A DNA stretch of 53,624 nt from Clostridia bacterium (GTDB lineage: Bacteria; Bacillota; Clostridia; TANB77; CAG-508). The notes beneath the pieces were generated by a model. That model was not told the DNA's origin, searched no databases, and saw nothing but the letters and a program-made list of their open reading frames with translations. Location: positions 1 to 53,624 of the forward strand of contig JAFXOY010000125.1 of the NCBI GenBank assembly GCA_017528375.1. Reading direction: 5' to 3'. A program made the position numbers and the translations under genes. Of this stretch, positions 6,991-46,657 are shown piece by piece (position 1 is the stretch's first letter; every line of letters begins with the position of its first letter).

Positions 6991-7073
6991 TGCACAATTG
7001 GGGACGCGTCCCTGCTGTGCATTTTGCACAGCTAGGGACAGGTCATTATTAATATATATTCAGGTTTGTCCCT
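6991..7073. repeat. GGGACGCGTCCC/TGTGCA palindromic repeat (flavour A), copy 1
   Basis: GCACAATTGGGGACGCGTCCC is followed by an internal TGTGCATTTTGCACA palindrome and then AGGGACAGG. An outer TGTCCCT lies at 7067-7073. On the minus strand it lies in the 5' UTR of the Ca2+ ATPase and ends one or two bases from its Shine-Dalgarno sequence. The rest of the ~310-bp gap (7074-7183) holds no gene that I can see. Confidence 0.85.
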
Positions 7074-7183
7074 ATTTATGCTTTTTTTACTTTCTTCTTT
7101 CACAATTTTACTGCATCAGACATTGTCAAAAAGCAGATTCATAATATGATGTACTCCCGAAGAATGATAATTTTTGCTGAAAA

Positions 7184-7226
7184 TAAAAAAGATTAATTGA
7201 ATTAATTCAATTAACCTTTTTTGTTT
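7184..7226 (-). terminator. AT-rich hairpin terminator downstream of the ABC permease
   Basis: GATTAATTGAATT/AATTCAATTAACC arms are flanked by A- and T-runs, so it could work in both directions. A flavour A repeat lies between this hairpin and the permease stop codon and so would be transcribed in the 3' UTR. Confidence 0.6.
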
Positions 7227-7231
7227 TTTAC

Positions 7232-7290
7232 TGACGTGTCCCTAGCTGTGCAAAATGCACAGCCGGGACGCGTCCCCAATTGTGCAATTA
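7232..7290. repeat. GGGACGCGTCCC/TGTGCA palindromic repeat (flavour A), copy 2
   Basis: ACGTGTCCCTAGCTGTGCA is followed by AATGCACAGC, then GGGACGCGTCCCCAATTGTGCAATTA. The outer end of the repeat contains the TAA stop (7288-7290 read on minus) of the ABC permease gene. Confidence 0.87.
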
Positions 7291-8745
7291 CACATTTTTT
7301 ATTTCTTTTTTATTAAATGCAAACCATCCTGCAACAACCATAATTACCCAGTAACAAATACATACACCAGTTGCGAAACCTAGGTTTGTAAATTCATATT
7401 GAGGCAACTTTCCAAATAAGAATTGTGAGAAATCCCAGTTTAATGTTGGGAAAATTGCTAATTGCTTAATTGGATGCATTGTTAATAATGAACTTACAAT
7501 TGCTCCACCAATATTTCCTATAATTGGTAAAACAATTGCTAGTACTGTATTTCCAAAAATACAACTTACTGCAAATGCCAATGTTCCAAGTAAAATATAT
7601 ATTGGTAATTTAGATAATGCTAATATTCCTAAATATTTAAATAGATTATATGTTTCCAATGAATTTGTATTAAAATTATAAACAACGGCCGGAATAGATA
7701 GTGAATCAAATCCAAATATTATTCCTCCAATCAAAATTTGCATTAACATTGTAACAACAAATATAAATAAAATCATCATTAATGATACTATATATTTAGC
7801 TAATAATATTTTCCATCTTTTATATGGTTTTACTAGAAGCATTTTTATTGTTCCCTTTTCCATTTCTGAACTTACCATTCCACCAGCAATCATAACAACG
7901 AAGATTACTAAGAAAATTGAGTATTCATCAAACATGTTTAATAATACGCCTCTTACTGAACTGTAATTTTTAACATCTTGTCTGTTTTCTATAATATATT
8001 TAGAAGTTTCGTATTCTTCTAATGCTTCTTGTTTTGCACGTTTTTCTTGATAACTTAAACTTTTATCATTGTAATTGTAATCAATTCCTGCTGAACGAAT
8101 TCTAGCTTCAATTGCATCATTCATAAAGTTTTGCCCATAAGGAATATCTTTTTCAATTCTCATTTTAGTTAATTCTAATTTTGTCTCTAACATTGCTATT
8201 GTATTATCTAATTCTTTTGCAATTTTTTCGTTTTTCACCATTTGTTTTTGATCTTTAGTTGCTGATAGTTCTTCTTCTATTTGCACAATTTCTTCTTGAA
8301 CATATTGTTTCCAATCACCATTTTTTAATTTATTTAATTCCCTGTTATACACTTCTTGCGGATTTTCTGTTATTCCTTCTTTATCTGCATCTGTACCATA
8401 TTTATAAACATTTATATTAAATAAATATCCTTGAAAATCTCTATTTATAATATATATTTGCCATGAGTTTTCATCAAATTGTTTCATCAACTCATAAAAA
8501 TCCACATCTGTTTTTAGTTGTATATAATTTTCCCTGTCGGACTCTGGATTTATATTGTTTAACTGCTCTCTTGCATATTCAATATATTGATCACTTGTAT
8601 TATAATTACCTTGATTGATCATAGACATCATATATTTATATATAAAATTTGTTAAAACAACAAACAATGCCAAAATGATTAAAACTATATATGTACTTTT
8701 CTTTCTAAAAATCTTTATCAATTCATTTTTTATTAAACTACCCAA
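7288..8745 (-). CDS. ABC-2 type transporter permease
   Basis: A 485-aa membrane subunit with one N-terminal transmembrane helix (about residues 18-42). A ~220-aa largely helical hydrophilic domain follows (about 45-265, rich in Glu/Lys/Gln), then five or more helices to the C-terminus (IFLVIFVVMIAGG onward). This 1+5 layout with a large loop fits the ABC-2 family of Gram-positive exporters (bacitracin, lantibiotic immunity, Nat-type). It overlaps the upstream ATPase gene by 8 nt, so translation is coupled. The substrate cannot be deduced. Its last codons and stop sit at the edge of a GGGAC-type repeat. Confidence 0.9.
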   Translation of the reverse strand: MGSLIKNELIKIFRKKSTYIVLIILALFVVLTNFIYKYMMSMINQGNYNTSDQYIEYAREQLNNINPESDRENYIQLKTDVDFYELMKQFDENSWQIYIINRDFQGYLFNINVYKYGTDADKEGITENPQEVYNRELNKLKNGDWKQYVQEEIVQIEEELSATKDQKQMVKNEKIAKELDNTIAMLETKLELTKMRIEKDIPYGQNFMNDAIEARIRSAGIDYNYNDKSLSYQEKRAKQEALEEYETSKYIIENRQDVKNYSSVRGVLLNMFDEYSIFLVIFVVMIAGGMVSSEMEKGTIKMLLVKPYKRWKILLAKYIVSLMMILFIFVVTMLMQILIGGIIFGFDSLSIPAVVYNFNTNSLETYNLFKYLGILALSKLPIYILLGTLAFAVSCIFGNTVLAIVLPIIGNIGGAIVSSLLTMHPIKQLAIFPTLNWDFSQFLFGKLPQYEFTNLGFATGVCICYWVIMVVAGWFAFNKKEIKNV

Positions 8746-9649
8746 TTACATTACCCCCTGTTCTTTTTAAGAAAGCATCTTCAAGTGATACTTTTTCTTC
8801 TTTAATTTCATAAATTTTGATATTCTTTTCAACTAGTTTTTCAACAAACGCTGGAATATCGTCCTTTTTTGCAGATAATGTAAATTTATTTTCATCAATA
8901 ATAGCAATGTTTTCAGTAACTTCTAATAATTTTGTATCATTAATTTCTACAGAATAAATCTTTTCATCACCATTTGATTTAGATTTTAAATCATCCATTG
9001 ATGTATTTTCAATTATTTTTCCATTTTTAATAATACATACTTTTGTACAGAAACTTTCAAGTTCTGCTAGGTTATGGCTAGAAATAAATATTGCCATTTT
9101 TTCCTCTTTAGCAAGTTTAACCAAAAACTCTCTTAAATCTTTTATTCCTTCTGGATCAAGCCCATTTGTTGGCTCGTCTAGAATTAATAAATTCGGTTTA
9201 TTTAAAATAGCTTGTGCAATACCTAATCTTTGTCTCATTCCTAAAGAATATTTAGAAACTTTATCATTAATTCTATTTTCCAAACCAACTAGTTTTACTA
9301 CCTCATCTATTCTCTTTGAATCAATATTTTTATACATATTAGCAATTAATTCAAGATTTTTTCTTCCTGATAAATACATATAAAAATCTGGATTTTCAAC
9401 TATTGCGCCAACTTTTTCAATTGCTTTAACGAAATCTGACTTAATGTCAAATCCATTAATTTTAACTGTTCCACTTGTTATATTTTGAAGTCCTAAAACA
9501 AGTTTAATAGTTGTTGTCTTTCCTGCACCATTTGGTCCAATGAAGCCTAAAATTTCTCCTTCATTTAATTCAAATGATACATTATTTAAAATTTGCTTTT
9601 TCTTAATTACTTTATTAAGATTATCGCATTTTAAAACTGTTTTACTCAT
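8738..9649 (-). CDS. ABC transporter ATP-binding protein
   Basis: A 303-aa nucleotide-binding subunit. Walker A is GPNGAGKTT (about residues 38-46), the signature is SLGMRQRLG, Walker B with D-loop is LLILDEPTNGLDPEG, and the switch His is in ISSHNLAELE. A ~80-aa C-terminal extension is typical of the BcrA/NatA-like exporter group. It powers the permease encoded next in the same operon. The ATG follows an AGGAGG two bases from the usual distance (ACTGAAGGAGGTATTAAT). The upstream intergenic region is shared with a divergent gene of unknown function. Confidence 0.93.
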   Translation of the reverse strand: MSKTVLKCDNLNKVIKKKQILNNVSFELNEGEILGFIGPNGAGKTTTIKLVLGLQNITSGTVKINGFDIKSDFVKAIEKVGAIVENPDFYMYLSGRKNLELIANMYKNIDSKRIDEVVKLVGLENRINDKVSKYSLGMRQRLGIAQAILNKPNLLILDEPTNGLDPEGIKDLREFLVKLAKEEKMAIFISSHNLAELESFCTKVCIIKNGKIIENTSMDDLKSKSNGDEKIYSVEINDTKLLEVTENIAIIDENKFTLSAKKDDIPAFVEKLVEKNIKIYEIKEEKVSLEDAFLKRTGGNVIG

Positions 9650-9837
9650 ATATTAATACCTCCTTCAGTAATACATTACCAATATTATCATATAATTTTA
9701 ACTTTGTCATCTATGACTTGATGGTCAAATTAAAATCTCTATATTTACTAATTTTTTAAAAAATATCAAATTCTATTATTGATTATAAAAATATGTTATG
9801 TTATCATTTTATTAGAAAAATATTTAGGAGGTTTCCT

Positions 9838-10806
9838 ATGGAAGAGAAAGAAACAAAAGATAACGTTGAAAAAATTGAAAAAATTGATAAAAAAGAAAAT
9901 AATTTAAAGAAATATAAATCTATTATATCAACAATAAAAAACATGGATAAAACAGATGGTGAAGGTAATCCTTGGTATGCTGATGATTATAATTGTCCTG
10001 GATATGAGGAATTAAAGAAAATGTTTCCAAATGTTTCTTTTAAGAAAGAAGATTTATTTAAACTTCAAAAAATATGGAATGAAAAAGATAAAAATGATAA
10101 TACCATTTATAATTTAGAAGATTTTAAATATGGTCATTCTTTTTACGAATCTCATGGACACAGTAAAACCAAAGAAGAAGATGAGCAATATAATAACGCT
10201 AAAGCAAAAAAAGGTGAGCTAGACTCAAAATGGGATAATGCTATCAACAGTTTCTTCACAACTTGTGAAATTTTAAATGGTGATAGAGATTTAAATTCAT
10301 GTGATATTGAAAAAGATGCTTTTCAACCAATATGTGATTACAAATTGGAATTACGTCCTAAAAATCCTTTCTACAGTAATTACTTTAATACTTACCAAAA
10401 ATACAATGAAGCTAAATCAAATAATGAAAAATTGATACATTCAAATATGGTAATAGAACGTAAATTAAATGAAAAAGTTAATGAAAATAAAGAATTAACA
10501 ATTGCAAATCAAGAATTAACTCAAGAAAACACAACTTTAAAAGCAAATGTATCAAAACTAAGAAAGATGCTTGATAAAACACTAGAATTCTGTAACAAAG
10601 TTAAAGAAAGTAAATTAGGTAGACTATTCTTCAGAAAACATCTTAAAGCTTTACCAAGCGCTCAAATTGAAAATGAAAAAGAAAGCAATGTTGAATACAA
10701 CTTTAGAGACAACTTTAAAGACAAAGTTGAAGTAAAATTTGAAGTAAAAACTGAAGAAAAAAATAAAATGAAAGGCAAAGAAAAAGAAAAAGAACTTGAA
10801 AGATAA
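9838..10806 (+). CDS. Hypothetical coiled-coil protein, 322 aa
   Basis: I do not recognise the family. The start is ATG 9838 because TAGGAGG lies 8 nt upstream; an earlier in-frame ATG (9793) has no ribosome binding site. The N-terminus is Lys/Glu-rich. A mid part with aromatic residues (NPWYADDYNCPGYEELKKMF) looks globular. A clear coiled coil spans about residues 195-255 (ANQELTQENTTLKANVSKL). A basic patch follows (KLGRLFFRKHLKALP), then a charged Lys/Glu tail. The coiled coil plus basic patch recalls plasmid mobilisation or replication accessory proteins, but there is no catalytic motif to support that. It is divergent from the ABC operon and convergent with smc. Confidence 0.78.
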   Translation: MEEKETKDNVEKIEKIDKKENNLKKYKSIISTIKNMDKTDGEGNPWYADDYNCPGYEELKKMFPNVSFKKEDLFKLQKIWNEKDKNDNTIYNLEDFKYGHSFYESHGHSKTKEEDEQYNNAKAKKGELDSKWDNAINSFFTTCEILNGDRDLNSCDIEKDAFQPICDYKLELRPKNPFYSNYFNTYQKYNEAKSNNEKLIHSNMVIERKLNEKVNENKELTIANQELTQENTTLKANVSKLRKMLDKTLEFCNKVKESKLGRLFFRKHLKALPSAQIENEKESNVEYNFRDNFKDKVEVKFEVKTEEKNKMKGKEKEKELER

Positions 10807-10819
10807 TAAAATTCAATAT

Positions 10820-10850
10820 AAAAAAGCAGATTATATAATCTGCTTTTTTA
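10820..10850. terminator. Bidirectional terminator between the coiled-coil gene and smc
   Basis: AAAAAAGCAGATTAT/ATAATCTGCTTTTTT is a perfect palindrome with T-runs on both strands, placed between two convergent genes. Confidence 0.9.
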
Positions 10851-10860
10851 TTTTTTTGCT

Positions 10861-10924
10861 AACCCGTCCCTCGTTGTGCAAAATGCACTAGCAAAGGACA
10901 CGTCCCCAACTGTGCAACTGTGCA
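10861..10924. repeat. GGGAC/TGTGCA palindromic repeat (flavour A), copy 3
   Basis: Contains ACCCGTCCCTCGTTGTGCA and AATGCACTAGC, then GGACACGTCCCCAACTGTGCA. It directly abuts the smc stop codon (10925-10927) and lies between that stop and the shared terminator. Confidence 0.83.
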
Positions 10925-13900
10925 TTATGCCATCTTAATTGACAATAATTTACTAATTCCATTTTCCTCCATTGTAACACCATAAACTGTGTCAGCGGCT
11001 TCCATTGTTCCTTTTCTGTGTGTTATTACTAAGAATTGAGTATCATTACTAAATTTCTTTAAATAATCTGCATATCTGTAAACATTGACATCATCTAAAG
11101 CTGCTTCAATTTCGTCAAGTATACAGAATGGTGCCGGATTTATTTTTAAAATTGCAAATAATAATGCAATTGCAGTAAATGCTTTTTCTCCACCTGATAA
11201 TAACATCATATTTTGAAGTTTTTTACCTGTAGGTTGAACTCTAATGTCTATTCCACATTCAAGAATATTTTCTTCATCCTCTAAAACAAGCTCTGCTTTT
11301 CCCCCGCCAAATAATTCTTGGAATACTTCATTGAAGTTTTTATTAATTAAGGCAAATTTTTCAGCAAATTGAGTTTTCATTGTTTTAGTCATATCATTAA
11401 TAACATTTCTAAGTTTTGCTTGAGTATTTTCCAAATCCATACGTTGTTCACTCATGAAGTCATATCTTTCTTTTGCTTTTTTATACTCTTCAATAGAATC
11501 AATATTAATGCTTCCTAAATCACGTATTTTATTACGTAATTTATTAACTTCTTTTTGTGTATTTTGAACATTGCTTGGTTTTTCATAATTTTCGCAATTA
11601 TTAGGAGTCATTTCATATTCTTCCCATAGCGTATTTACAACTTGTTGTAAATCTTGTTCAAATTTATTTTTCTTTACATCAATTTTTACTATTTGTTCCT
11701 TTAATCCTTCAATTACTGAGAATTGATCTGTTATTTCTTTTTCTGTTTTTTCTAATTTTTTATTATTTTCAATTCTTGAAGTTTTTAATTCTTCAACCTT
11801 TCCTACACTATTTGAAACATCTGATTTAATTGTTTCAATTTCATTGTTATAATTAACAATATTTGCTTCTAATTCCGTATTTTCTTTAGCAATATCGCTT
11901 ATTTGTTTTTCTTTATTTTCTATACTTGCCTTATTATTTGTAATATCTAATTCAATTCTTTCAACCATTTCATCAATTGATGTTCCACTTTCATCAAATG
12001 ATGATACTGAAATTCTTAAATTTGTTATATCAAAATTCAAGTCATCAATATATTTTTGATTATCTTTATTTAAAATAGCAAATTGCTCAATAACGCTATT
12101 TAAATCTGCATTTTCCTTATCTATTTTTTCTATTTGCGCAAATTTTTCTTCTTTTTCTTTTAATAAATTAGCTTTTTGATTTTTAATAGTTTCATTTTCC
12201 TGCTTTAATTTTTCAAGTCTAGTTGCAATTTTGTCAATAGCTTCTTCAATAGATAAAATCTTTTGCTTTTCTGTTGCATAAACAATATTAATTTCATTTA
12301 ATTTGTTATCCAATTCTTCCGCTTTTTCTATAACACCAGAAATTGAACCTTCATATTTTTCTTTATTCTTTGTAACTTCTTCTAGCTTAGATTTTAAAGA
12401 TTTAATTTCTTTTTCTAGTTTTTCAATTTCATTACTTCTACCTAATATATTGACAGTTTTAGCCGCCACAGATCCACCTGTAATAGCACCAGAATTACTT
12501 ATAATATCACCTTTTAAAGTAACAATTCTAAAAGCATAATTATTTGCTTTAGCTATTTGTATTCCAGAATCCATATCATCAACTACAACTGTTCTTCCAA
12601 GTAAATTTAATACAATATTTTCATATTTTTTATTGCATTTTACTAGATCAGATGCAATTCCAATATAGCCATCAAAATTACACTTTAATCTATCAATTTT
12701 ATTTCCTTTAACTGATGAAATTGGTAAGAATGAAGCTCTTCCTAAATTATTTTTACGTAAATGCTCTACTAGTTTTTTTGCATTTTGCTCATTGTCTGTT
12801 ACAATGTTTTGAAGCACTCCACCTAATGCCATTTCAATAGCAGTTTGATATTTATCATCAACAGATATTAAGTTTGCCAAAACACCTTCCACACCTGATT
12901 TTAAAGATGGAATTTTATCACAATCTTGTAATAAAGATTTTACGCTTTTTGTATATCCTTCTTTTTCTTTTTCAGTTTCTACTAAAAATTTATATCTAGA
13001 GTCCTTCATTCGAATATCATAAGAAATTTTATTAATTTCATCTTCGTATTCTTTAATTTTATTTGTGACATTTTCTCTTTCTTTTGATATTTTTTCTATT
13101 TCAGATAATACTTTATTTTTTTGTCCTTCGATTTCAAAATATCCCTTAGAAATTTCTTGTTTATCACTTCTTGAACCATCTAATTCTGATATAGTTTCAG
13201 CAATTTCAGTTTTCAATGTTTTTTCTCTTTTTTCAAAATTTTCAAAATTAGCCTCCAAAGTACTAATTTCATTTCCAATCTCATATTTGTTATCTGTATT
13301 TTTCTCAACTTTTTGTTTTTGTTCTTCAATTTCTAATTCTTTAGAAGAGAGCTTTTCAGTTAATTTTGCAAGTTCTGCTTCTTTCTCTTTTAATTCATTT
13401 TCAAATTTTTCTTTATTAGTAAAAATATTATTTTTCTTTTCAATCTTCTGATTCTTCTCATCTTCTAATTCTGTAATTCTTGTTTTTACTTCTTCTATTT
13501 CATTTGTTAATCTTTCTGTGTTTGCTTTATTATTAGAAATTCTTTCATTTGCAATTCCTATTTCAGAATTTAATTTTTCTATCTTATTTGTACTTTCAAA
13601 GCTTAAATTTTGAACACTCTCAATTTCAGCTGTTATCTTATCTATCTCAGCCTTTAAATCATCTTTAGACTTTTGCATCTTTTCAAGTTTAGTTGATTCA
13701 TCATCTCTTTGAGATACCATTATATCCTCATCTTTAACTATTTGTTCAAGTTTTTCTTTATAATTATCTATATTATATAAGAATAAACCAACTTCTATAT
13801 TCTTTAATTCTTCCCTTAAATCTAAAAACTGTTTAGCTTTTTCAGATTGAATTCTTAATGGATCTAAATTACCTTCAATTTCAGATAAAATGTCATTAAT

Positions 13901-14470
13901 TCTTAAAAGGTTCAATTTAGTTTGTTCTAATTTTTTCTCTGATTCACCTTTTCTAACTCTATATTTAACAATTCCAGCAGCTTCTTCAAAAATATGTCTT
14001 CTATCTTCAGATTTATTGCTTAAAATTTCATCAATTTTACCTTGTCCAATAATAGAATATCCGTCTTTTCCAATACCTGTATCCATAAATAATTCTAAAA
14101 TATCTTTTAATCTACATGGTACTTTGTTAATAAAATAACCACTCTCACCGCTTCTATATATTTTTCTAGTTACTGTTACTTCATTATATTCAATTGGAAG
14201 TGCACCATCAGAATTATCAATGACAATAGAAGCTTCAGCAAAACCTAATGATTTTCTATTTTGTGTTCCATTGAAAATAATATCTTCAGATTTAGCACCT
14301 CTTAATGATTTCATACTTTGTTCTCCAAGTACCCATCTAATACTATCTGATATATTACTTTTACCTGACCCATTTGGACCAATTACTGATGTTATTCCTT
14401 CCTTAAACTCTAAAACTGTTTTATCTGCAAATGATTTAAACCCTTGTAACTCTAATCTTTTTAAGTACAT
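10925..14470 (-). CDS. smc: Chromosome segregation protein SMC
   Basis: About 1181 aa, the normal length for bacterial SMC. The N-terminal head has GPNGSGKSN (Walker A) and the Q-loop region. Two long coiled coils flank the hinge (about residues 500-670; SGVEGVLANLI and SNSGAITGGS). The C-terminal head has the ABC signature LLSGGEKAF and Walker B ILDEIEAALDD. The dimer loads with ScpA/ScpB to organise and separate chromosomes. ATG 14470 is preferred because AAAGGTG lies 7 nt upstream; the in-frame GTG 9 nt earlier is itself part of that ribosome binding site. In many Clostridia smc follows rnc, but here rnc lies 31 kb away. The stop codon touches a GGGAC-type repeat. Confidence 0.98.
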   Translation of the reverse strand: MYLKRLELQGFKSFADKTVLEFKEGITSVIGPNGSGKSNISDSIRWVLGEQSMKSLRGAKSEDIIFNGTQNRKSLGFAEASIVIDNSDGALPIEYNEVTVTRKIYRSGESGYFINKVPCRLKDILELFMDTGIGKDGYSIIGQGKIDEILSNKSEDRRHIFEEAAGIVKYRVRKGESEKKLEQTKLNLLRINDILSEIEGNLDPLRIQSEKAKQFLDLREELKNIEVGLFLYNIDNYKEKLEQIVKDEDIMVSQRDDESTKLEKMQKSKDDLKAEIDKITAEIESVQNLSFESTNKIEKLNSEIGIANERISNNKANTERLTNEIEEVKTRITELEDEKNQKIEKKNNIFTNKEKFENELKEKEAELAKLTEKLSSKELEIEEQKQKVEKNTDNKYEIGNEISTLEANFENFEKREKTLKTEIAETISELDGSRSDKQEISKGYFEIEGQKNKVLSEIEKISKERENVTNKIKEYEDEINKISYDIRMKDSRYKFLVETEKEKEGYTKSVKSLLQDCDKIPSLKSGVEGVLANLISVDDKYQTAIEMALGGVLQNIVTDNEQNAKKLVEHLRKNNLGRASFLPISSVKGNKIDRLKCNFDGYIGIASDLVKCNKKYENIVLNLLGRTVVVDDMDSGIQIAKANNYAFRIVTLKGDIISNSGAITGGSVAAKTVNILGRSNEIEKLEKEIKSLKSKLEEVTKNKEKYEGSISGVIEKAEELDNKLNEINIVYATEKQKILSIEEAIDKIATRLEKLKQENETIKNQKANLLKEKEEKFAQIEKIDKENADLNSVIEQFAILNKDNQKYIDDLNFDITNLRISVSSFDESGTSIDEMVERIELDITNNKASIENKEKQISDIAKENTELEANIVNYNNEIETIKSDVSNSVGKVEELKTSRIENNKKLEKTEKEITDQFSVIEGLKEQIVKIDVKKNKFEQDLQQVVNTLWEEYEMTPNNCENYEKPSNVQNTQKEVNKLRNKIRDLGSINIDSIEEYKKAKERYDFMSEQRMDLENTQAKLRNVINDMTKTMKTQFAEKFALINKNFNEVFQELFGGGKAELVLEDEENILECGIDIRVQPTGKKLQNMMLLSGGEKAFTAIALLFAILKINPAPFCILDEIEAALDDVNVYRYADYLKKFSNDTQFLVITHRKGTMEAADTVYGVTMEENGISKLLSIKMA

Positions 14471-14490
14471 TTTTTTCACCTTTCGTATTT

Positions 14491-14547
14491 CAAATTGAGG
14501 ACGGTCCTTTTTTCAAATTTTTAAAATTAAGGACCGTCCCTTATATC
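14491..14547. repeat. GGACGGTCC short palindromic repeat (minimal flavour)
   Basis: CAAATTGAGGACGGTCC and GGACCGTCCCTTA arms are separated by an AT-rich spacer. It carries the same GGACGG/CCGTCC core as the larger repeats but lacks the long adaptor words. It lies just upstream of the smc ribosome binding site. Confidence 0.75.
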
Positions 14548-14591
14548 AAATAATATATCAAAATTTGTTGAAAATCAATAGTTATTTTGAA

Positions 14592-14628
14592 CAAAAAAGA
14601 AGACCTTTTGATTGAAAAGTCTTCTTTA
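14592..14628 (-). terminator. Terminator of the nucleosidase-like gene
   Basis: AAAGAAGAC/GTCTTCTTT stem with a T-run on the minus strand (CTTCTTTTTTG), immediately after the stop codon at 14632. Confidence 0.87.
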
Positions 14629-14631
14629 TCT

Positions 14632-15222
14632 TTAATTCAAAAATTCTAAACAACTTGTTAATTCAAAAACCTCTTCTTTATTCAAATTATTATAATAATC
14701 TCCTAAATTCAAATTATCACTAATCTTTTTTAAAGCTAATAAACTAATTTTATTCAAATCACAAATTAAAGAAATTGAATGTAATTCCATATCAAATGCA
14801 ACATGCCCCTCTATATTAGTTTCTGTAACAAAACTTTCTGAAGAATAGCATTCAACTTTTTCAATATCAACATTATCTAGAGTTTCAAGTTCTTGACTTC
14901 CCCCTACATCCATTACATATTTTTCTTCCTCTGGTATGCCCCATTCATAGTTGTAAGCTTTTGAAATATTAACCCATTTTCCAATTGGAATATCAGTTGA
15001 ACCAGCATACCCAACGTTTATTATTAAATCTGGTTTTGGATTATTACATAAATATTGTGTCAAGTTTATTGCCGTTACTTGCTTACCTATTCCTGTAATT
15101 AATATTCTTTTATTTTCTTCTTTATTTTCAAATAAATTTTCAGCCACTTCTTTCATATTTAATTTTTCTGCAATTTGTTTTCCTTCCTTTTCCATTGCAC
15201 ATACAAACAATATACTTCTCAT
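14632..15222 (-). CDS. Nucleoside phosphorylase-superfamily protein (MTA/SAH nucleosidase-like)
   Basis: At 196 aa it is shorter than the usual ~230 aa. It opens like Pfs/MtnN (ILFVCAMEKEG), has the glycine-rich ITGIGKQVTAINL and the INVGYAGSTDIPIG stretch of the fold, and shows VAFDMELHSI where the family has a DMEGAA-type purine/ribose-binding motif. The catalytic Asp of the C-terminal SDxA-type motif is not obvious, and the C-terminus appears shortened. It may cleave methylthioadenosine or S-adenosylhomocysteine, or be a diverged relative with another nucleoside substrate. It is monocistronic, with its own terminator, and divergent from the SpoVB-like gene. Confidence 0.7.
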   Translation of the reverse strand: MRSILFVCAMEKEGKQIAEKLNMKEVAENLFENKEENKRILITGIGKQVTAINLTQYLCNNPKPDLIINVGYAGSTDIPIGKWVNISKAYNYEWGIPEEEKYVMDVGGSQELETLDNVDIEKVECYSSESFVTETNIEGHVAFDMELHSISLICDLNKISLLALKKISDNLNLGDYYNNLNKEEVFELTSCLEFLN

Positions 15223-15318
15223 TGATATAACTCCTCTTATTCATATTTACTTAAGAATTATAACATAAAATGGATTTTTTTTAAATATATTTAAGAAAAA
15301 GTATGTAAGGAGTCATAA

Positions 15319-16626
15319 ATGAAACCCATAAAAACATTTTTTATAAATGGAATAGTATTAACAATAACATCTTTAATTGTTAGATGTATAGTCATGTTCT
15401 TCAATTCATATATTTCTCAAAAAATAGGTGCTGAAGCTGTGGGTTTATACGGATTGGTAATGTCAATTTATGGGTTTGCAATAACAATTGCATTATCAGG
15501 AATAAATTTAGCTACCACTAAAATTATTGCAGAAGAAATTGCAATCGGCAAAACAGAAAATATAAAAAAAGTAGTAAATAAATGCTTACAATTTTGTTTA
15601 ATATTCAGTAGCATAGCTATGTTTTTATTAATTACCTTTTCACCCTTTATTTGTAAAACATGGTTACATGGCAGAATTTCTGCCAAGCCTTTTTATATAA
15701 TATCAATTTCTTTGCCTTTTATATCAATGTCATCATGCATAACAGGATATTTTACAGCAATAAGAAATTCCATAAAACCCGCATCAGATCAGATACTTGA
15801 ACAATTATTAAAAGTAGCACTTATATCTGCTTTTTTAAATTATTTTATGCCTTGTGGTTTGGAATATATCTGTCTCTCTCTAATTTTAGGAAATATAATT
15901 TCTGAAGTTTTATCATTTTTATATATTTTTTCACTATACAAACTTGATGAAAAAAAACTATCAAAACTTAAACCTGATAAATCATTTCTTGAAAAAAGAA
16001 TTTTGCAAATTACCATTCCTGTTGGACTAACATCATTTATACGTTCTGGATTATCAACAATTAAGCAGATTTTAATTCCTATTGGTTTTGAAAAACATGG
16101 TGAAAGTTGTAATCAAGCTTTAGCTAATTATGGTTTAATTTCTGGAATGGCAATGCCTTTAGTTCTTTTTCCTAACATAGTAATTCTGGCATTTAGCAAT
16201 TTACTAATACCAGAATTTACAGAATTAAATAGTAGATCACAGGATAGAAAAATAAAACATACAACAAAATTAATAATAAAATATTCACTGATTTTTTCAA
16301 TAATAATATCAATAATACTTTTTATATTTGCGCCACAACTAAGCTATTTTATGTATAAATCAACAAATGTAATAATCTATATAAAACTTTTAGCTCCTTT
16401 AATTCCAATTATGTATATAGACAGTGTTGTTGATGCAATTTTAAAAGGTCTTGATAAACAAGTAGATGTTTTAAAAATAAATATATTAGACCTTGTTACA
16501 TGCATTTTATTAATTTTTATTCTAATTCCGTTGTTTGGAATTAATGGTTACATTTTTATAATTTATTTTAGTGAATTATTAAATTTTACACTTAGTTTTT
16601 CTTGTCTGAAAAAAACTTTAAAATAG
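15319..16626 (+). CDS. SpoVB-like polysaccharide flippase (MOP superfamily)
   Basis: A 435-aa integral membrane protein with about 12-14 predicted helices. It opens with FFINGIVLTITSLIVR and has the SpoVB/Wzx region VGLYGLVMSIYGFAI followed by SGINLATTKIIAEE. SpoVB-type proteins move lipid-linked saccharides and are needed for spore cortex formation in Bacillus. It is somewhat shorter than SpoVB (~520 aa). The start is supported by TAAGGAG 7 nt upstream. A PASTA-domain penicillin-binding protein of SpoVD/PBP2x type follows on the same strand with its own promoter, which fits a cortex or cell-wall role. A second, longer paralogue lies at 33383-35047. Confidence 0.82.
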   Translation: MKPIKTFFINGIVLTITSLIVRCIVMFFNSYISQKIGAEAVGLYGLVMSIYGFAITIALSGINLATTKIIAEEIAIGKTENIKKVVNKCLQFCLIFSSIAMFLLITFSPFICKTWLHGRISAKPFYIISISLPFISMSSCITGYFTAIRNSIKPASDQILEQLLKVALISAFLNYFMPCGLEYICLSLILGNIISEVLSFLYIFSLYKLDEKKLSKLKPDKSFLEKRILQITIPVGLTSFIRSGLSTIKQILIPIGFEKHGESCNQALANYGLISGMAMPLVLFPNIVILAFSNLLIPEFTELNSRSQDRKIKHTTKLIIKYSLIFSIIISIILFIFAPQLSYFMYKSTNVIIYIKLLAPLIPIMYIDSVVDAILKGLDKQVDVLKINILDLVTCILLIFILIPLFGINGYIFIIYFSELLNFTLSFSCLKKTLK

Positions 16627-16659
16627 TTTGAAATTAATAGTGTTACACTTAAAATTTTC

Positions 16660-16688
16660 TTGACTTTTAAAAACAGTTACTATACAAT
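16660..16688 (+). promoter_or_regulatory. Sigma-A type promoter for the PASTA penicillin-binding protein
   Basis: TTGACT, a 17-nt spacer, then TACAAT; the gene starts about 38 nt downstream. Confidence 0.65.
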
Positions 16689-16726
16689 TATTTTGATATG
16701 AAACTATAATGAAAAGATGGTGAAAT

Positions 16727-19018
16727 ATGAAGTCAAACAATAGAAAAAATAGTGTAAAAAATACTAAAAGACAATCAAAAAAAGAAGACATAAATTTAGT
16801 GCAAAAATCAGGAAGAACTCTTGGTTTTACAGTTTTTATAATCATTTTATTAATAATTTTAGTTTTTAGATTAAGTTATCTTCAATTTATAAAAGGGCCT
16901 AGTTTAAAAGAAGCTGCAACAAAGCAGCAAACAACTAGTAGAATTATAAGCCCAAACAGAGGATCTATTTATGATTCAACAGGTAAACCTCTTGCAATAA
17001 GCGCAAAAGTTGATACTGTAACCATTAATCCACAAAAATTCGTAATAAGTGATGGTGATAACTCTCAAGAAAAAACAGCAAACCTTCAAGAAAAGGTTTC
17101 TAAAGCTTTTGCAGAAATTTTTGAACTTGAATATGACGATGTATACCAAAAAGTAACAAGCAATAGTTCAATTCAAACAATTGCTAAAAAAGTTGAAGAA
17201 GAAAAAATTAATAAGTTAAAAGCTTGGATGGAAGAAAATGAAATCAATGATGGAATTAATATAGATACAGATACCAAAAGATATTGCTATTATAATAATT
17301 TAGCATCAAATTTAATAGGTTTCTGTGGGGATGATAATCAAGGTTTAGCAGGTTTAGAGTATTATTGGAATTCAGTTTTAACAGGAACTCCAGGGAAAAT
17401 CATTACATCTCAAGATGCTCATCAAGATATTATTTCAAACAATAATGAGAATTACATTCCAGCCCAAAACGGAAGTAACATTACTTTAACTATTGATTAC
17501 AATATTCAAACAATAGCAGAAAAGTATTTAAAACAAGCTGTTGCAGATAATAATTGTAACAGAGGTGGAAATATAATTGTTATGGATCCTAAAACAGGCG
17601 ATATTTTAGCCATGGCTTCATACCCAGACTATAACTTAAATTCACCTTTTACACCAAATGAAACATTATCAAAAACATGGGACTCATTATCTGCTTCTGC
17701 CAAAAGCACAGCATTACAAAATATGTGGAAAAATATATCAGTTACAAACACATATGAACCTGGTTCAGTTTTTAAAGTTTTAATTTCTGCGATTGCACTT
17801 GAAGAGAATTTAGTAGAAACAGATACACCAGGAATTTTCTCGTGCATAGGATATCAAGACATTTATGGAACACAAATCGGTTGTGCTAAAACTTCAGGTC
17901 ACGGATATCAATCTTTAAGAGAAGCACTTGAACATTCATGTAACCCAGCATTTATGCAATTAGGTGCTAAAATTGGTAAAGAAACTCTTTATAAATATTT
18001 TGACGCATTTGGTTTATTTGATAAAACAGGAATTGCCACTGCAGGTGAAGCAGTTGGAACATTCCATAATTTAGATAAAGTTGGACCTGTAGAACTTGCA
18101 ACAATTTCATTTGGACAAAGATTTACAATTACTCCTTTACAAATGATTACATCAGTTTGTGCAATTGCAAATGACGGAGTTTTAATGCAACCAAGAATTG
18201 TAAAATCAATTCAAAATACTGACACTGGAACAGTTACAACTATTGAGCCTAAAGAAGTACGACAAGTTATATCTAGTGAAACAGCTGAACAAGTACGAAG
18301 TATGATGGAATCAGTTGTTGTTGAAGGTGGAGGTAGATATGGACAAGTATCTGGATATAATATAGGTGGAAAAACCGGTACATCTGAGGCATCACCTGGT
18401 AAAGAAGAAGAAGGTACTGTTGCATCATTCCTTGCAATAGCTCCAGTTGAAAATACAAAAGTTGCGGTTTTATTAACACTTTACGATCCAGCCAAAAGTA
18501 ATAACTACGGTGGACAAATTGCAGCACCAGTTGTTGCACAAGTATTATCTGAAGTTCTACCATACTTAGAAATACCTTCAAATAATACAACTATTACAAC
18601 TACACCAACAGATACATATAATAGTTTACAAACAACAGCTCTACCAGATGTAAAAAATAAAACTGTTGCTCAAGCTAAAAAAATATTAGAAAATGCTGGA
18701 TTCAAATATGAAACATCAAGTACAGATGATTCAATAGTTTCAGAACAAGTACCAAAACCTGGTACAGGATTAGTAAAAGGTGCACTAGTAAAATTATATA
18801 CAAATAATAATTCAGATAGAACATCTGTCGAAGTTCCAAGTGTAAAAGGTCTTACAGCCGTTAAAGCAAAAAACACCTTATTATCAAACAAATTAAATGT
18901 CAAAGTTGTAGGAACAGGCAAAGTTGTAAGCCAAGACCCAATAGCTGGAACAAATATAGAAGAAGGAAGTGTTGTTACAATTACACTTCAAGATGAGTTA
19001 GATTCAGGATCACATTAA
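16727..19018 (+). CDS. Class B penicillin-binding protein with two PASTA domains (SpoVD/PBP2x type)
   Basis: A 763-aa peptidoglycan DD-transpeptidase. It has one membrane anchor at about residues 33-52 and a PBP-dimerisation domain. The transpeptidase domain carries the active-site SVFK (347-350), SCN (404-406) and KTGT (549-552). Two C-terminal PASTA repeats span about 635-757. SpoVD usually has one PASTA domain while PBP2x-type division proteins have two, so a division (FtsI-like) or spore-cortex role are both open. The SpoVB-like gene just upstream favours either. Start ATG 16727 follows AAAGATGGTG. The gene ends next to a tandem pair of GGGAC-type repeats that separates it from the convergent pdp gene. 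Confidence 0.93.
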   Translation: MKSNNRKNSVKNTKRQSKKEDINLVQKSGRTLGFTVFIIILLIILVFRLSYLQFIKGPSLKEAATKQQTTSRIISPNRGSIYDSTGKPLAISAKVDTVTINPQKFVISDGDNSQEKTANLQEKVSKAFAEIFELEYDDVYQKVTSNSSIQTIAKKVEEEKINKLKAWMEENEINDGINIDTDTKRYCYYNNLASNLIGFCGDDNQGLAGLEYYWNSVLTGTPGKIITSQDAHQDIISNNNENYIPAQNGSNITLTIDYNIQTIAEKYLKQAVADNNCNRGGNIIVMDPKTGDILAMASYPDYNLNSPFTPNETLSKTWDSLSASAKSTALQNMWKNISVTNTYEPGSVFKVLISAIALEENLVETDTPGIFSCIGYQDIYGTQIGCAKTSGHGYQSLREALEHSCNPAFMQLGAKIGKETLYKYFDAFGLFDKTGIATAGEAVGTFHNLDKVGPVELATISFGQRFTITPLQMITSVCAIANDGVLMQPRIVKSIQNTDTGTVTTIEPKEVRQVISSETAEQVRSMMESVVVEGGGRYGQVSGYNIGGKTGTSEASPGKEEEGTVASFLAIAPVENTKVAVLLTLYDPAKSNNYGGQIAAPVVAQVLSEVLPYLEIPSNNTTITTTPTDTYNSLQTTALPDVKNKTVAQAKKILENAGFKYETSSTDDSIVSEQVPKPGTGLVKGALVKLYTNNNSDRTSVEVPSVKGLTAVKAKNTLLSNKLNVKVVGTGKVVSQDPIAGTNIEEGSVVTITLQDELDSGSH

Positions 19019-19022
19019 AAAT

Positions 19023-19148
19023 TGACACATTTGGGGACGGACTCATTTTGGGTCAAAAATGACACATTAAGGGACGGTCTTTAAATGTTTCAAAAAAGAA
19101 ACATTTGAAGACCGTCCCTTAAACATTTTAATTAAACATCTGTCCCTA
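19023..19148. repeat. Tandem GGGACGG repeats: flavour B (TGACACATT) then flavour C (GAAACATT)
   Basis: The first unit runs TGACACATTTGGGGACGGAC to TGACACATTAAGGGACGG. The second runs AATGTTTC to GAAACATTTGAAGACCGTCCC, ending in TGTCCCTAATT. The last copy supplies the TAG stop of pdp (19146-19148 read on minus). The whole gap between the convergent genes is repeat sequence, with no conventional terminator; the hairpins may serve instead. Confidence 0.85.
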
Positions 19149-20450: not shown

Positions 20451-20467
20451 TTTCTTCCTTCCTTTTC

Positions 20468-21097
20468 CTATTTAACTATATTCTTCACGAAACTCAACCT
20501 ATGCAACGGGCAAAGTCCATATTCCTTAATTGCAGCAATATGTGCAGCTGTTCCATAACCTTTGTGTTGTATAAAATTATATTGTGGATAAACCTCATGC
20601 CATTGCCTCATAATTCTATCCCTTGTAACTTTAGCAATAATAGAAGCTGCAGCAATTGAATAACATTTAGCATCGCCTTTTATAATAGAATGATAAGGAA
20701 TTCCACATGTATCAATCCCTTTTAAAGCATCAACTAAAATTATATCTGGTTTTACCTTCAATCCTTTAATAGACTCCGTCAATCCCGCTTTAGTAGCGTT
20801 TAATATATTAACACGATCTATTTCCTTTTGATCAACAATTCCGACACTATAACTTATTGCATTTTCAATTATTTCATCATATAATTTTTCTCTTTTCTTT
20901 TCTGATATTTTTTTAGAATCATTTACTCCTTCAATCATTGAGTCTTTTGGCATTATTACACTTGCAACAACAACAGGCCCAGCAAGTGGTCCACGCCCTG
21001 CTTCATCTATTCCACAAATATAATTTGTTCCTTGCGAATATATATCTTCTTCTATTTTCTTTAACTCTTGTAATCTTAATTGCTCTTTTTCTTTCAT
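20468..21097 (-). CDS. rnhB: Ribonuclease HII
   Basis: 209 aa. It shows the type-2 RNase H active site: GIDEAGRGPLAGPV (Asp31, Glu32), then Asp123 in ILVDALKG and the later SIIAKVTRDR stretch. It removes RNA from RNA-DNA hybrids, including single misincorporated ribonucleotides. The gene starts 2 nt after the stop of the upstream membrane protein gene and is 18 nt from pdp, giving a compact three-gene unit. Confidence 0.97.
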   Translation of the reverse strand: MKEKEQLRLQELKKIEEDIYSQGTNYICGIDEAGRGPLAGPVVVASVIMPKDSMIEGVNDSKKISEKKREKLYDEIIENAISYSVGIVDQKEIDRVNILNATKAGLTESIKGLKVKPDIILVDALKGIDTCGIPYHSIIKGDAKCYSIAAASIIAKVTRDRIMRQWHEVYPQYNFIQHKGYGTAAHIAAIKEYGLCPLHRLSFVKNIVK

Positions 21098-37637: not shown

Positions 37638-37638
37638 T

Positions 37639-40210: not shown

Positions 40211-40297
40211 TGGGGACGGTTTTATATTAAATAATGTCCTAACCCGTCCCCCGTTGTGCAAAATGCACAGCGGGGACGCGTCCCTAATTGTGCAATT
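40211..40297. repeat. Double GGGAC palindromic repeat (flavour A, copy 4, plus a half unit)
   Basis: TGGGGACGG and AACCCGTCCCCCGTTGTGCA are followed by AATGCACAGCGGGGACGCG and TCCCTAATTGTGCAATTGC. The right end encodes the last codons (Gln-Leu-His-Asn) and the TAG stop of the RluD-family gene. The left end abuts the rluB ribosome binding region. Confidence 0.87.
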
Positions 40298-41715: not shown

Positions 41716-41876
41716 GGCGAAAGTTGGAGATTATGCAAGCAGATTTAATATATTAACATGAAGTGGAGTGCGCAGTTTGGCGCTCCTTATTATCGTCTTT
41801 TTCTCAAATCGTATCGCCAGTAAACGAACGGAATGTTAATATATTAAATCTGCTTGCATAATCTCCAACTTTCGCC
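41716..41876. repeat. 161-bp element with perfect 44-bp inverted arms
   Basis: The left arm 41716-41759 and right arm 41833-41876 are perfect reverse complements over 44 bp (outer ends GGCGAAAGTTGGAG/CTCCAACTTTCGCC). The 73-bp spacer contains its own hairpin GGAGTGCGC/GCGCTCC. It has no ORF and is much longer than any terminator in the window. It lies between tsf (stop 10 nt away) and lspA. No second copy is visible in the window. Confidence 0.93.
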
Positions 41877-41885
41877 GGTTATAAA

Positions 41886-42767: not shown

Positions 42768-42793
42768 TTTTTTATTCCTCCCTTATTTTATTT

Positions 42794-42826: not shown

Positions 42827-42844
42827 CAAAATCATTATTATTTA

Positions 42845-43627: not shown

Positions 43628-43752
43628 TTTTATTTCCTCCCTTTTTGTTTTTACCTCCATAAAGCTTCAAACATTTTTCAAAGACTTGTAATTGAAAAAA
43701 TTTTACAAGCACACCTTTTCAAACTAACTCTATGTGCGTTTTAACAGTCACT

Positions 43753-43781
43753 ATTATATCAAAAAATTCAAATTAAATCAA
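43753..43781 (-). promoter_or_regulatory. Promoter of rpsB-tsf
   Basis: TTGATT, 17 nt, TATAAT on minus. The resulting leader of ~115 nt contains AAATTTTTTCAA-type inverted sequences but no recognisable S2-binding structure. Confidence 0.65.
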
Positions 43782-43821
43782 GCTTTTTTATAGCATTTTT
43801 GTAACTTTTTAAGATATTTTT

Positions 43822-44706: not shown

Positions 44707-44778
44707 CTAATAACAGTTTTACCACAATTAGGTAAGATTATTCATTTACCTGTAAATAGGTCAAAATTTGAGGTCATC

Positions 44779-45804
44779 CTATACAACCTTGCGAATTGCA
44801 TATTCCTTCACAGAATCATCTTTCTCAACCACCACATCAACATTATACAATTCCTTGATTCTTTTAATATTTTCTCTCTTATGTCCAACAAAATTATTTA
44901 TTAATGCTCCATTTACTTTTACTTTCACAACCTTAACCTTATTATTAAGCTTATGAATCTTTTTAGAGAAATCATCATAACAGATTCTACTCTCGACCAA
45001 CTGTCTAAATGCAGGATGATAGGGTCCAGCCACAACCTGGCTACTTTCATTTTCAGGATTACAAATTTCATCTGTACTTTGTAAACCTATTCTTATAACA
45101 TCAATTTTTTTCTTTTTAAACATTTTAAGTAAAATAGCACTCGTTTCTACTGCTTGTTCAAGCGTATTTGGCTTATATTCTCCATTTAAATAATCATCAG
45201 CAAGTTTAGTATCCTTTATAACTAAAACGGGGTAAATCCTTACCATTTTTGGTCTAAGTTTAATAAGATTTTTGGCTGTTTCAATCTCATCTTTTTGAGT
45301 ACTCTCTGGCAATCCCACCATCATCTGATGTCCTAAATTAAATTTGTTTTTCCTAATTAATTTAGATGCTTTTTTTACATCTTCAAAAGTGTGTCCTCTT
45401 TTACATTTATCAAGAATAAAATCATTTGTAGATTGAACGCCAAGCTCAATAGTCTTAACATCATATTTCTTAAGTAAATTTAAAATATCTTGATCTATAT
45501 AATCAGGTCTTGTTGAAATTCTAATTCCATCAACTTTTCTTTGCTTTATATAGACATTGGCTGCTGACAATAATTCCTCTTGAACGGCTTTATCTATTCC
45601 AGTAAAACTACCTCCGAAAAAAGCAACTTCAACTTTATTACTGCAATCTTTAAAATTACTTAAATAATAATCTATAATTCTATTTACGTCTTCGGAAGAT
45701 ATATTCTTTTTTTGTCCGCTAATCTTCTTTTGATTACAGAAAGTACAATCATTAGGACATCCTAAATGTGGTACAAAAATCGGAATTATATACTCTTTTT
45801 TCAC
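44779..45804 (-). CDS. Elp3-like radical SAM protein
   Basis: About 341 aa. The SAM cluster motif CPNDCTFC is near the N-terminus, followed by EVAFFGGSFTG and the radical SAM barrel. The C-terminal part has RIGLQSTDEI and HPAFRQLVESRICYDD. This group resembles the radical-SAM half of Elp3 and in Clostridia usually sits beside rnc and smc. Its reaction is unproven. The start is uncertain: GTG 45804 has GGAG 7 nt ahead, while ATG 45810 is only 1 nt from it. It is downstream of rnc, separated by a GGGAC-type repeat. Confidence 0.88.
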   Translation of the reverse strand: MKKEYIIPIFVPHLGCPNDCTFCNQKKISGQKKNISSEDVNRIIDYYLSNFKDCSNKVEVAFFGGSFTGIDKAVQEELLSAANVYIKQRKVDGIRISTRPDYIDQDILNLLKKYDVKTIELGVQSTNDFILDKCKRGHTFEDVKKASKLIRKNKFNLGHQMMVGLPESTQKDEIETAKNLIKLRPKMVRIYPVLVIKDTKLADDYLNGEYKPNTLEQAVETSAILLKMFKKKKIDVIRIGLQSTDEICNPENESSQVVAGPYHPAFRQLVESRICYDDFSKKIHKLNNKVKVVKVKVNGALINNFVGHKRENIKRIKELYNVDVVVEKDDSVKEYAIRKVV

Positions 45805-45825
45805 TGGCATTCTCCTTTCCACCTA

Positions 45826-45892
45826 AACATTTTAAGACCGTCCCTGAATGTTTCAATTTTGAAACAAAACAAGACCGTCCCAAAACGTTTCA
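45826..45892. repeat. GAAACATT/AAGACCGTCCC repeat (flavour C), copy 2
   Basis: AACATTTTAAGACCGTCCC and AATGTTTC are followed by GAAAC and AAGACCGTCCCAAAACGTTTC. It fills the whole gap between the rnc stop and the radical SAM gene's leader. Confidence 0.82.
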
Positions 45893-46567
45893 TTATTTTA
45901 ATTTTAACAATGCTTTATGCGCCGCATCCATCTCGGCTGACTTTTTGTTCTTTCCTTCTCCAATTGCCAATTTTTTTCCATCGCAGCTTACTTCTGCAAC
46001 AAATGTTTTATCATGATCTGGCCCTTTTTCTTCTAATATTACATATCTTATATTAACGTCACCATGTATTTGTAATTTTTCTTGTAAAACTGTTTTATAG
46101 TCTTTCATTCCAACGTGTTGACTTGCAACTTTAATAGCATCTTTTAAATTGTCAACAATAAATTTTTCTGCCTGTTCTAAATCAGAATCAAAATAAATTG
46201 CAGCTATCACCGCTTCAACACTATCAGCTAAAATAGCAGGCCTTACAGTATCACCACTCATTACTTGACTTTTTCCTAAATATAAGAAATCACTAAAATT
46301 ATGCTTTAAAGCCACTTTATGCAAGCTTTTTTCGCAAACAACATCAGCTCTAACTTTAGTCATTTCTCCTTCTTTTAGAAAGCTATAATTATTATAAATA
46401 TATTTACTTGATATAAATTCTAATATACTATCTCCTAAAAACTCCAACTTTTCATTGCTTTCAATATGATGTTCGTTCGCATATGATGTATGTGTTAATG
46501 CTTTCTTTAATAATTCAATATTTTTAAATTTATATCCTATACTTTTTTCTAATAAAGATAAATCCAT
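45893..46567 (-). CDS. rnc: Ribonuclease III
   Basis: 224 aa. The endonuclease domain has THTSYANEH and the signature NEKLEFLGDSILEFIS with the catalytic Glu and Asp. A C-terminal double-stranded RNA-binding domain spans about residues 155-223 (KNKKSAEMDAAHKAL). It processes rRNA precursors and other duplex RNAs. It is flanked by GGGAC-type repeats on both sides, which as transcribed hairpins would themselves be possible RNase III substrates. The smc gene usually found downstream is elsewhere. Confidence 0.98.
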   Translation of the reverse strand: MDLSLLEKSIGYKFKNIELLKKALTHTSYANEHHIESNEKLEFLGDSILEFISSKYIYNNYSFLKEGEMTKVRADVVCEKSLHKVALKHNFSDFLYLGKSQVMSGDTVRPAILADSVEAVIAAIYFDSDLEQAEKFIVDNLKDAIKVASQHVGMKDYKTVLQEKLQIHGDVNIRYVILEEKGPDHDKTFVAEVSCDGKKLAIGEGKNKKSAEMDAAHKALLKLK

Positions 46568-46586
46568 TTTTCATTCCTTTCTATTA

Positions 46587-46657
46587 TGACACATTCCGGG
46601 ACGGACTCATTTTGGGTCATTTTTGACACATTTTGAGTCCGTCCCCAAATGTGTCAA
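46587..46657. repeat. TGACACATT/GGGACGG repeat (flavour B), copy 2
   Basis: TGACACATTCCGGGACGG runs to GAGTCCGTCCCCAAATGTGTCA, with an internal TGGGTCATTTTTGACACATT. The outer arms pair over about 20 bases. It lies in the rnc 5' UTR. Confidence 0.87.

Follow-up and report, generated by a model that had tools for sequence, protein, structure and literature searches.

GGGAC-core palindromes in a Clostridia genome and their probable link to RAYT-type transposases

Intergenic palindromes in the window

The window analysed here is a 53,624-nucleotide (nt) stretch, positions 1 to 53,624 of contig JAFXOY010000125.1 (assembly GCA_017528375.1), from a gut bacterium of the Clostridia (GTDB family CAG-508). 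Its source, G000 below, is a metagenome-assembled genome (MAG) of 1.99 Mb in 187 contigs, 92% complete and 8% contaminated. Eight loci between the genes of the window carry palindromes built on GGGACG/CGTCCC cores, and an earlier note on this DNA had described them as a modular family in which one core is combined with several interchangeable adaptor words, here called flavours A, B and C, or stands in a minimal form. Some of the repeats lie beside a gene for an SMC-like protein, for which we found 31 homologous MAG loci, mostly labelled uncultured Clostridia, Clostridium or Lachnospiraceae; the nearest homologue comes from a roe-deer rumen MAG at 91% identity, and the proteins of the relatives G005 and G011 are also 91% identical. 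The units are as follows, with single-stranded DNA folds given as z scores.

6991..7045, + strand: flavour-A unit with TGCACA arm, GGGGACGCGTCCC core, TGCACAGC hairpin and GGGACAGGTCA inner part, resembling the left end of the transposase gene RAYT A described below
7232..7286, − strand: flavour-A unit, inverted copy (z −5.1)
10860..10924, − strand: flavour-A unit, degenerate copy without the exact GGGACGCGTCCC
14488..14549, no strand assigned: minimal palindrome GGACGGTCC...GGACCGTCCC with TTTCAAA-like outer words (z −5.4)
19023..19121, + strand: composite of a flavour-B unit followed by a flavour-C hairpin, GAAACATT/AATGTTTC (z −8.1)
40211..40294, − strand: flavour-A unit with a degenerate partner unit
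45824..45892, − strand: flavour-C dimer with a weak fold, flanked by a radical-SAM gene and the RNase III gene
46587..46656, no strand assigned: flavour-B dimer of 70 nt, TGACACATT...AATGTGTCA, upstream of the RNase III gene (z −8.2)

Inspection of the sequence found the words named in the earlier note at all eight loci, at the coordinates given there. The shared core likewise holds for the eight, with the qualification that the exact GGGACGCGTCCC is absent from the degenerate copy at 10861 and from the left half of the repeat at 40211. Their intergenic placement was borne out, counting 6991 as intergenic because this unit overlaps only a mechanically called TTG start, an ATG with a ribosome site lying at 6976. 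Folds were computed for the window units other than 10861 and 40211, and their z scores ranged from −5.0 to −8.2 except for the flavour-C dimer (45826-45893, z only −1.8). The 6990-7048 segment folds at −16.5 kcal/mol (z −5.0), and together with 7229-7287 it forms a pair of arms that are 95% complementary. The flavour-B unit at 19023 consists of TGACACATT with GGGACGGACTCA outside and GGGACGGTCTT inside; the inner unit already bears the flavour-C loop GGGACGGTCTT, and this outer/inner order is the one found at one end of the transposase gene RAYT B (locus L002).

The observation of the eight repeats is confirmed, and their cores are far more frequent than chance would give: the window has 20 GGGACG/CGTCCC hexamers, compared with means of 1.37, 0.75 and 1.48 under Markov models of order 1, 2 and 3, and the simulated maximum was 5 (60 simulations per order). 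By our own gene list, coding sequence makes up about 79% of the window, yet 18 of the 20 cores lie outside genes; the two genic cores (4728 and 5924) both fall within the ATPase gene. The genome-wide collection of cores that had been proposed beforehand yielded 346 matches to GGGACGS (184 + 162), compared with 29 (15 + 14) for the reversed control. Across a further 11 stretches of this genome (104 kb in all), picked for containing cores, 64 of 84 cores lie outside mechanically called open reading frames (ORFs) of at least 100 amino acids (aa), which cover 82% of that sequence; in stretch L088, 10 of 19 cores lie inside such ORFs. A further flavour, E (GGGACGGAGAAAATTT), is represented by 0 matches in the window and 17 exact matches in the genome.

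Transposases bounded by the same ends

The earlier note had suggested a link to REP (repetitive extragenic palindrome) elements and their Y1 transposases, the REP-associated tyrosine transposases or RAYTs, and had proposed a search for such a gene flanked by the same ends. A profile search with PF01797 recovered two Y1 transposases in this genome, both RAYT-type and each in one copy: RAYT A (L001), a 259-aa gene inside inverted flavour-A ends, and RAYT B (L002), a 252-aa gene inside inverted flavour-B ends. The relative G011 carries a flavour-C RAYT (L076), a flavour-E RAYT (L077) and a second A RAYT (L075). Flavours A, B, C and E thus each match a different RAYT, and the minimal form at 14491 is matched to none. 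Because each flavour has its own RAYT, the data point to a family of related RAYTs with their own arm words, rather than to the single machinery with several substrate families that had been envisaged; the RAYT link itself held up, through the RAYTs with the same ends, the genome-wide repeats and the empty sites described below. When RAYT A was used as the query, a sequence search of the PDB returned one match at E = 0.34, nothing meaningful.

This arrangement recurs widely among related transposases. Across 38 genomes (this one and 37 relatives), PF01797 gave 45 matches, which we sorted by length and motifs, on our own reading, into 26 RAYT-type loci, nine IS200-type controls (L048-L054, L073, L074), three of another RAYT type that were set aside (L071, L072, L084), and seven fragments or weak matches that were left out (L070, G020:C186, G025:C32, three of G032, and G037:C17). 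Inverted GGGAC(G/A) cores with varied arms occur at both ends of 22 of the 26 RAYT-type loci of this order-level sample, the right core of L080 lying 435 nt downstream. Extending the search to the class with an alignment of 18 RAYTs, we found relatives in 63 of 196 genomes, and GGGAC was present in both matched ends at 27 of 30 class loci (25 of 28 without L211 and L212, which repeat L002 and L056). The inverted-repeat score exceeded the best of 20 shuffles by more than 5 at 21 of the 30, all 21 of which have the core. Convergent cores, sought within 300 nt on both sides, flanked 0 of 197 ORFs of at least 200 aa in relatives; at the IS200-type loci they were found in 0 of 9. RAYT matches in plasmid and phage records were all less than 60% identical. 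Farther afield, the RAYT of Acetoanaerobium noterae has GGGACGG in both ends and AATCATTAGGGACGGTTC at both ends, and GGGACGG was not found in both ends of the RAYTs of Sporomusa termitida and Collinsella aerofaciens.

Two observations on other ends belong here. At L066 (G035), the inverted blocks on either side of the RAYT are about 150 nt long, consist of tandem repeats and lack the GGGAC core. The three shorter Y1 transposases of the same order that were set aside have, by eye, GTAG-plus-hairpin ends like those of canonical REPs.

Constant core, variable arms and dispersed copies

We compared 48 RAYT ends, a set without L232 and without L216, whose core sits too close to the end of its contig. 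These ends were selected by the presence of GGGAC, so that the core itself is circular in this set; the base that follows it is G in 38 of them and A in 10. The arms are informative: perfect pairing of at least 6 bp with the end's own partner arm occurs in 32 of 48 ends, compared with 12% of swapped combinations (permutation P ≤ 1 × 10−4), and an earlier set of 22 ends had given a mean stem of 6.7 against 4.6 when swapped (P = 2 × 10−4). These pairing statistics indicate that the unit is a hairpin with variable arms around a constant core; flavour A is a longer unit with a self-complementary core. Distances between RAYTs correlate with distances between ends (Mantel r = 0.35, P = 1 × 10−4, n = 22), and in the larger set with those of the arms (r = 0.28) and of the loop (r = 0.26, P = 2 × 10−4 each, n = 48). 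Loop type after the core changes 24 times on the RAYT tree, against a shuffled mean of 28.9. Partial correlations hint that the arms go with the catalytic part (0.24) more than with the C-terminus (0.003), but they carry no P value, and we place no weight on them.

Tandem arrays of core units were also seen, at L260 (G001:C36:8200-8430; TCTCCGTCCCC...) and at L218 (GGGGACGGTTCTTTTTTGAAA). Genome G001 holds 537 GGGACGS matches compared with 19 for the control.

Dispersed copies of each word are concentrated in few genomes. Flavour-A sites number 51 here, 60 in G011, 2 in G013, 1 in G008 and 0 in the 34 others, and the two genomes with RAYT A are those with 51 and 60. Flavour C has 82 matches in G014, 31 in G011, 9 in G005, 6 here and 0 elsewhere; flavour E has 34 in G011, 17 here, 6 in G014, 4 in G001, 3 in G005 and 1 in G003. 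The flavour-B word GGGACGGACTCA occurs 93 times here, 51 times in G003, 13 times in G035 and 0 to 3 times elsewhere. Reversed-pattern controls for the A, B, C and E searches gave 0. The 51 matches in G003 were considered as flavour B and rejected, since the TGACACA arms are missing from the 13 stretches fetched; this is another word with the same loop as flavour B. Among 152 genome-flavour pairs, at least 15 matches were found in 5 of 5 pairs with the cognate RAYT and in 3 of 147 without it (Fisher's exact test, P = 9 × 10−8), in a table that counts G003 as a match without a RAYT, and hence against the reading we favour, and whose pairs are phylogenetically non-independent, with a few matches added by the RAYTs' own end copies.

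Many copies come as inverted pairs at fixed spacing. A manual count of positions gave 25 B pairs spaced 36 nt apart and, among 50 of the 51 A sites, at least 10 A pairs spaced 84-86 nt apart in this genome, as well as many C pairs spaced 46 nt apart in G011 and G014; single units occur too. For each of A, B and C we read 20 stretches, those of B having been picked as pairs. The A pair resembles both ends of the RAYT-A element with a short spacer in place of the gene, and many B and C dimers are nearly perfect palindromes, in stretches that for these two flavours had mostly been selected as pairs.

Some flavour-C dimers sit within larger structures. In five of nine G014 stretches (L197, L198, L203, L204, L205), the dimer lies, by eye, inside a larger palindrome whose arms resemble GGTCAGCC/GGCTGACC, and three more of L197-L205 show partial traces of it.

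Empty sites in relatives, which the earlier note had named as a check on mobility, were sought in 22 of the 24 same-genus stretches fetched (all except L138 and L139), a gap being counted only when both flanking anchors aligned. The repeat was missing from relatives at all six window sites that could be counted. Both GGGAC and GTCCC were absent from all 11 relatives counted at 46587 and from all 11 counted at 45826, from 3 of 3 gaps at 40211 (G011, G014, G013), from 3 of 3 gaps at 19023 (G005, G011, G008), from the single 860-nt orthologous gap of G011 at 14491 and, at the ATPase-SMC junction (6991), from 2 of 3 gaps, G005 and G002. The third of these, in G014, has GGGACA and was considered possibly occupied, a candidate that was rejected when no flavour-A unit was found on reading. 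The empty gaps include those of G011 and G014, genomes that elsewhere are rich in A or C copies. The repeats at 7232 and 10861 adjoin genes that are absent there in relatives. Removing 46587-46656 from the alignment raised the score from 64.5 to 79 in G005 and from 72.5 to 82.5 in G008; identities were 52/62 (G005), 59/71 (G011) and 58/69 (G008) with the repeat removed, and 44/62, 87/106 and 71/83 with it kept.

The ATPase-SMC junction shows a further difference between genomes. In the window, the ATPase gene is separated from the SMC gene by a segment of ABC transporter genes and one ORF (7288-10806), which flavour-A units bracket; in relatives, the spacing between the two genes is 177 nt in G005 and 220 nt in G002, with a 1250-nt gap in G014. 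The 7288-10806 segment is possibly a repeat-bounded cargo.

Because the repeats match RAYT ends, they look like small mobile repeats, and we regard it as very probable that they are non-autonomous mobile repeats, REPIN-like in kind, that belong to Y1 (HUH-tyrosine) transposases of the TIRYT / RAYT group 1 type. Resident RAYT genes are bounded by inverted copies of a short unit, in which family-specific arms can pair around a near-constant GGGAC(G/A) core; under the mechanism we propose, the RAYT would most likely recognise the folded single strand. The core may set general recognition or the register of cleavage and the arms family specificity, a division of roles that is our own proposal; the RAYT would then copy or move units, often as inverted pairs, to new intergenic sites as the gene stays put. 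Single-strand hairpin recognition and HUH-tyrosine strand transfer are proposed by analogy with the TnpAREP biochemistry in PMC8266576. As RAYT and word change together over time, the repeat population would turn over, in this lineage from C to B.

Several points, together with the non-independence of the pairs in the Fisher table, weigh against this reading. The core is missing from one or both ends at 4 of the 26 order-sample RAYTs (L058, L066, L079, L083) and at 3 of the 30 class-sample RAYTs (L217, L229, L233), 16 of the 48 ends pair perfectly over less than 6 bp, and a single 33-nt C unit folds no better than many shuffles (z −1.2). Word and enzyme are not always found together in these incomplete assemblies: the 17 flavour-E matches here stand in a genome (MAG 92% complete) with no E RAYT, and G014 (MAG 76% complete) has 82 flavour-C matches and no C RAYT found; nor is the core enriched in 40 kb around the Acetoanaerobium RAYT (16 compared with 18 for the control). 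At 46587, removal of the repeat lowered the G011 alignment score from 105.5 to 77.5, and at 45826 and 19023 it lowered the score in all five comparisons. The relatives differ by about 12-25% in aligned DNA, which leaves most junctions only approximately placed, and inspection by eye gave no clear sign of a target site or of a target duplication. Finally, the evidence is a comparison of species-level relatives, from which mobility is inferred.

Three other explanations were weighed. The repeats could be intrinsic terminators or RNA hairpins kept by the host for regulation, whose presence at RAYT ends is incidental. Their intergenic placement and the good folds of most folded units would suit this, as would the B/C composite at 19018-19146, which lies where two genes converge and where, by eye, a terminator-like hairpin is present in the gaps of G005 and G011. 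In contrast, none of seven terminator-like matches overlaps any of the five repeats in 4000-20500, the scanned interval, which ends short of the other three at 40-47 kb; orthologous gaps of relatives lack the copies, flavours are limited to one or few species, and the matching inverted ends at the RAYTs would be left unexplained, all of which makes this explanation very improbable. We hold it just as improbable that the units are classical miniature inverted-repeat transposable elements that a double-strand (DDE) transposase moves in trans, the RAYTs travelling along as passengers: the resemblance of A dimers to RAYT-A ends around a short spacer is of that kind, but the core-bearing ends sit at Y1/RAYT genes across the class, and target duplications were not seen by eye.

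Somewhat less remote, though still unlikely, is that the RAYTs and repeats are fossils of a once mobile system, now fixed or domesticated, whose repeats spread long ago. RAYT A and the B/C RAYT each occur once in this genome and keep their locus, and the window copies at 10861, 40211 and 45826 are degenerate, as expected of such a history; against it stand the near-perfect palindromes of many B and C dimers, the emptiness of the testable window sites in relatives, and copy numbers of a word that differ strongly between close species.

Known systems and a change of word at one locus

The closest known system is that of the TIRYT or "TIRtron" RAYTs. Di Nocera 2013 (PMC3733652) describes these with terminal inverted repeats that carry a GGGG-A/T-C/G motif (GGGGWSAS), along with moderately abundant dispersed families of such repeats, some as dimers. 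Of 26 TIRYTs, 20 are members of TnpAY1 subclass 2.1 as defined by Corneloup 2018 (PMC6006769), which also takes in 291 of 292 RAYT group 1 proteins (Bertels 2017, as cited there); subclass 2.1 is the largest TnpAREP subclass in that survey's table (493 sequences), and the survey found no REP-like sequences near its genes. The transposases studied here share with TIRYTs the Y1 transposase domain, the Y---NP signature and a long C-terminus; a helix-turn-helix (HTH) is present in some, and the terminal inverted repeats agree with the GGGG motif in part. The transposases differ in that most ends depart from the exact GGGGWSAS, the base after GGGAC being mostly G, and, with respect to subclass 2.1 in the 2018 survey, in having word-matched families of 17-93 pattern matches per genome. 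Neither a constant core with variable pairing arms nor a change of word at a single locus appears in the portions of PMC3733652 and PMC6006769 consulted.

Protein features agree in part with this group. The Y1_Tnp domain (PF01797) scores over its Pfam cut-off, and N59, H60, H62, Y119, N123 and P124 are invariant among the 18 aligned RAYTs. RAYT A, B and C have NHVH, and E and others NHAH (subclass motifs NHVH/NH[YF]H); Y[IV]H.NP is found in RAYT A, B and C, other rows varying as YIYNNP or YVYNNP (subclass motifs YIELNP/Y[IV]HLNP). HTH_23 scores over the cut-off in RAYT B and C, with a weak HTH match in L075 and none in L001 or L077. Taken together, the motifs and length of the proteins and the GGGGAC repeats beside their genes suggest TIRYT / subclass 2.1, but the subclass motifs, the HTH and the exact GGGGWSAS are found only in part, and we therefore call the system a variant that works like RAYT/REPIN, and not a proven member.

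Like the GTAG REP/REPIN-RAYT systems (TnpAREP), this one has repeats that flank a RAYT, many extragenic palindromes and inverted dimers, and its dispersed inverted pairs of fixed spacing are those by which a REPIN is recognised. Unlike them, its constant element lies between the arms, and no GTAG/GTGG tetranucleotide was seen by eye at the hairpin foot of the A, B, C and E units; NCBIfam REP_Tyr_transpos is the best family for all four RAYTs, at 56.9-61 bits, under its curated cut-off of 80 bits. IS200/IS605 transposases share the HUH-tyrosine catalytic motif and hairpin ends with these RAYTs, which differ in their inverted-copy ends and resident single-copy gene. CGTC-tagged REPs, as described in PMC3733652, carry CGTC as an unpaired end tag and have no dedicated transposase; the complement of the core here also reads CGTCCC, but it lies within the unit between the arms, and A, B, C and E are matched to RAYTs. 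Among the titles and abstract openings listed by our literature searches, which included the core strings and had most subscription literature outside their reach, there was no report of such repeats in Clostridia.

Two resident loci can be followed between this genome and G011. L001 and L075, the two A RAYTs, align on both sides at 79-84%, and are thus the same locus with the same word. L002 (RAYT B) and L076 (RAYT C) are 76% identical over 3.1 kb including flanking genes, the same locus with a different word, and in the RAYT tree these two form sister rows (support 100/99). L002 carries the B loop GGGACGGACTC in its outer units and the C loop GGGACGGTCTT in the innermost one on either side. 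The C-bearing genomes G011, G014 and G005 have 1, 0 and 0 GGGACGGACTCA matches, compared with 93 here against 6 of flavour C. On the simplest reading, C is ancestral and B arose in this lineage, a direction we infer; the B/C difference could also stem from gene replacement by recombination or from the loss of one of two copies. We put it at about an even chance that this is word switching, in which a resident RAYT keeps its place as its word changes, from C in G011 to B here, with the core constant and the repeats largely replaced by the new word, which would amount to a class-wide Clostridia code of constant core and variable arms, with specificity co-evolving between enzyme and hairpin.

With these data, RAYTs resembling subclass 2.1 gain species-specific repeat populations and a simple rule, constant core and variable pairing arms. 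The orthologous RAYTs with different words (B/C), beside orthologous RAYTs with the same word (A/A), form a natural experiment, by which the co-evolution of a resident transposase and its repeats becomes directly testable.

The window also holds a different intergenic structure at 41716-41876, with 44-nt perfectly complementary arms set 73 nt apart. By eye, the hairpin is kept in G005 with matching changes on both arms, G014 has its right part only, and G011 has a different hairpin at the site. It looks like another mobile or structured element.

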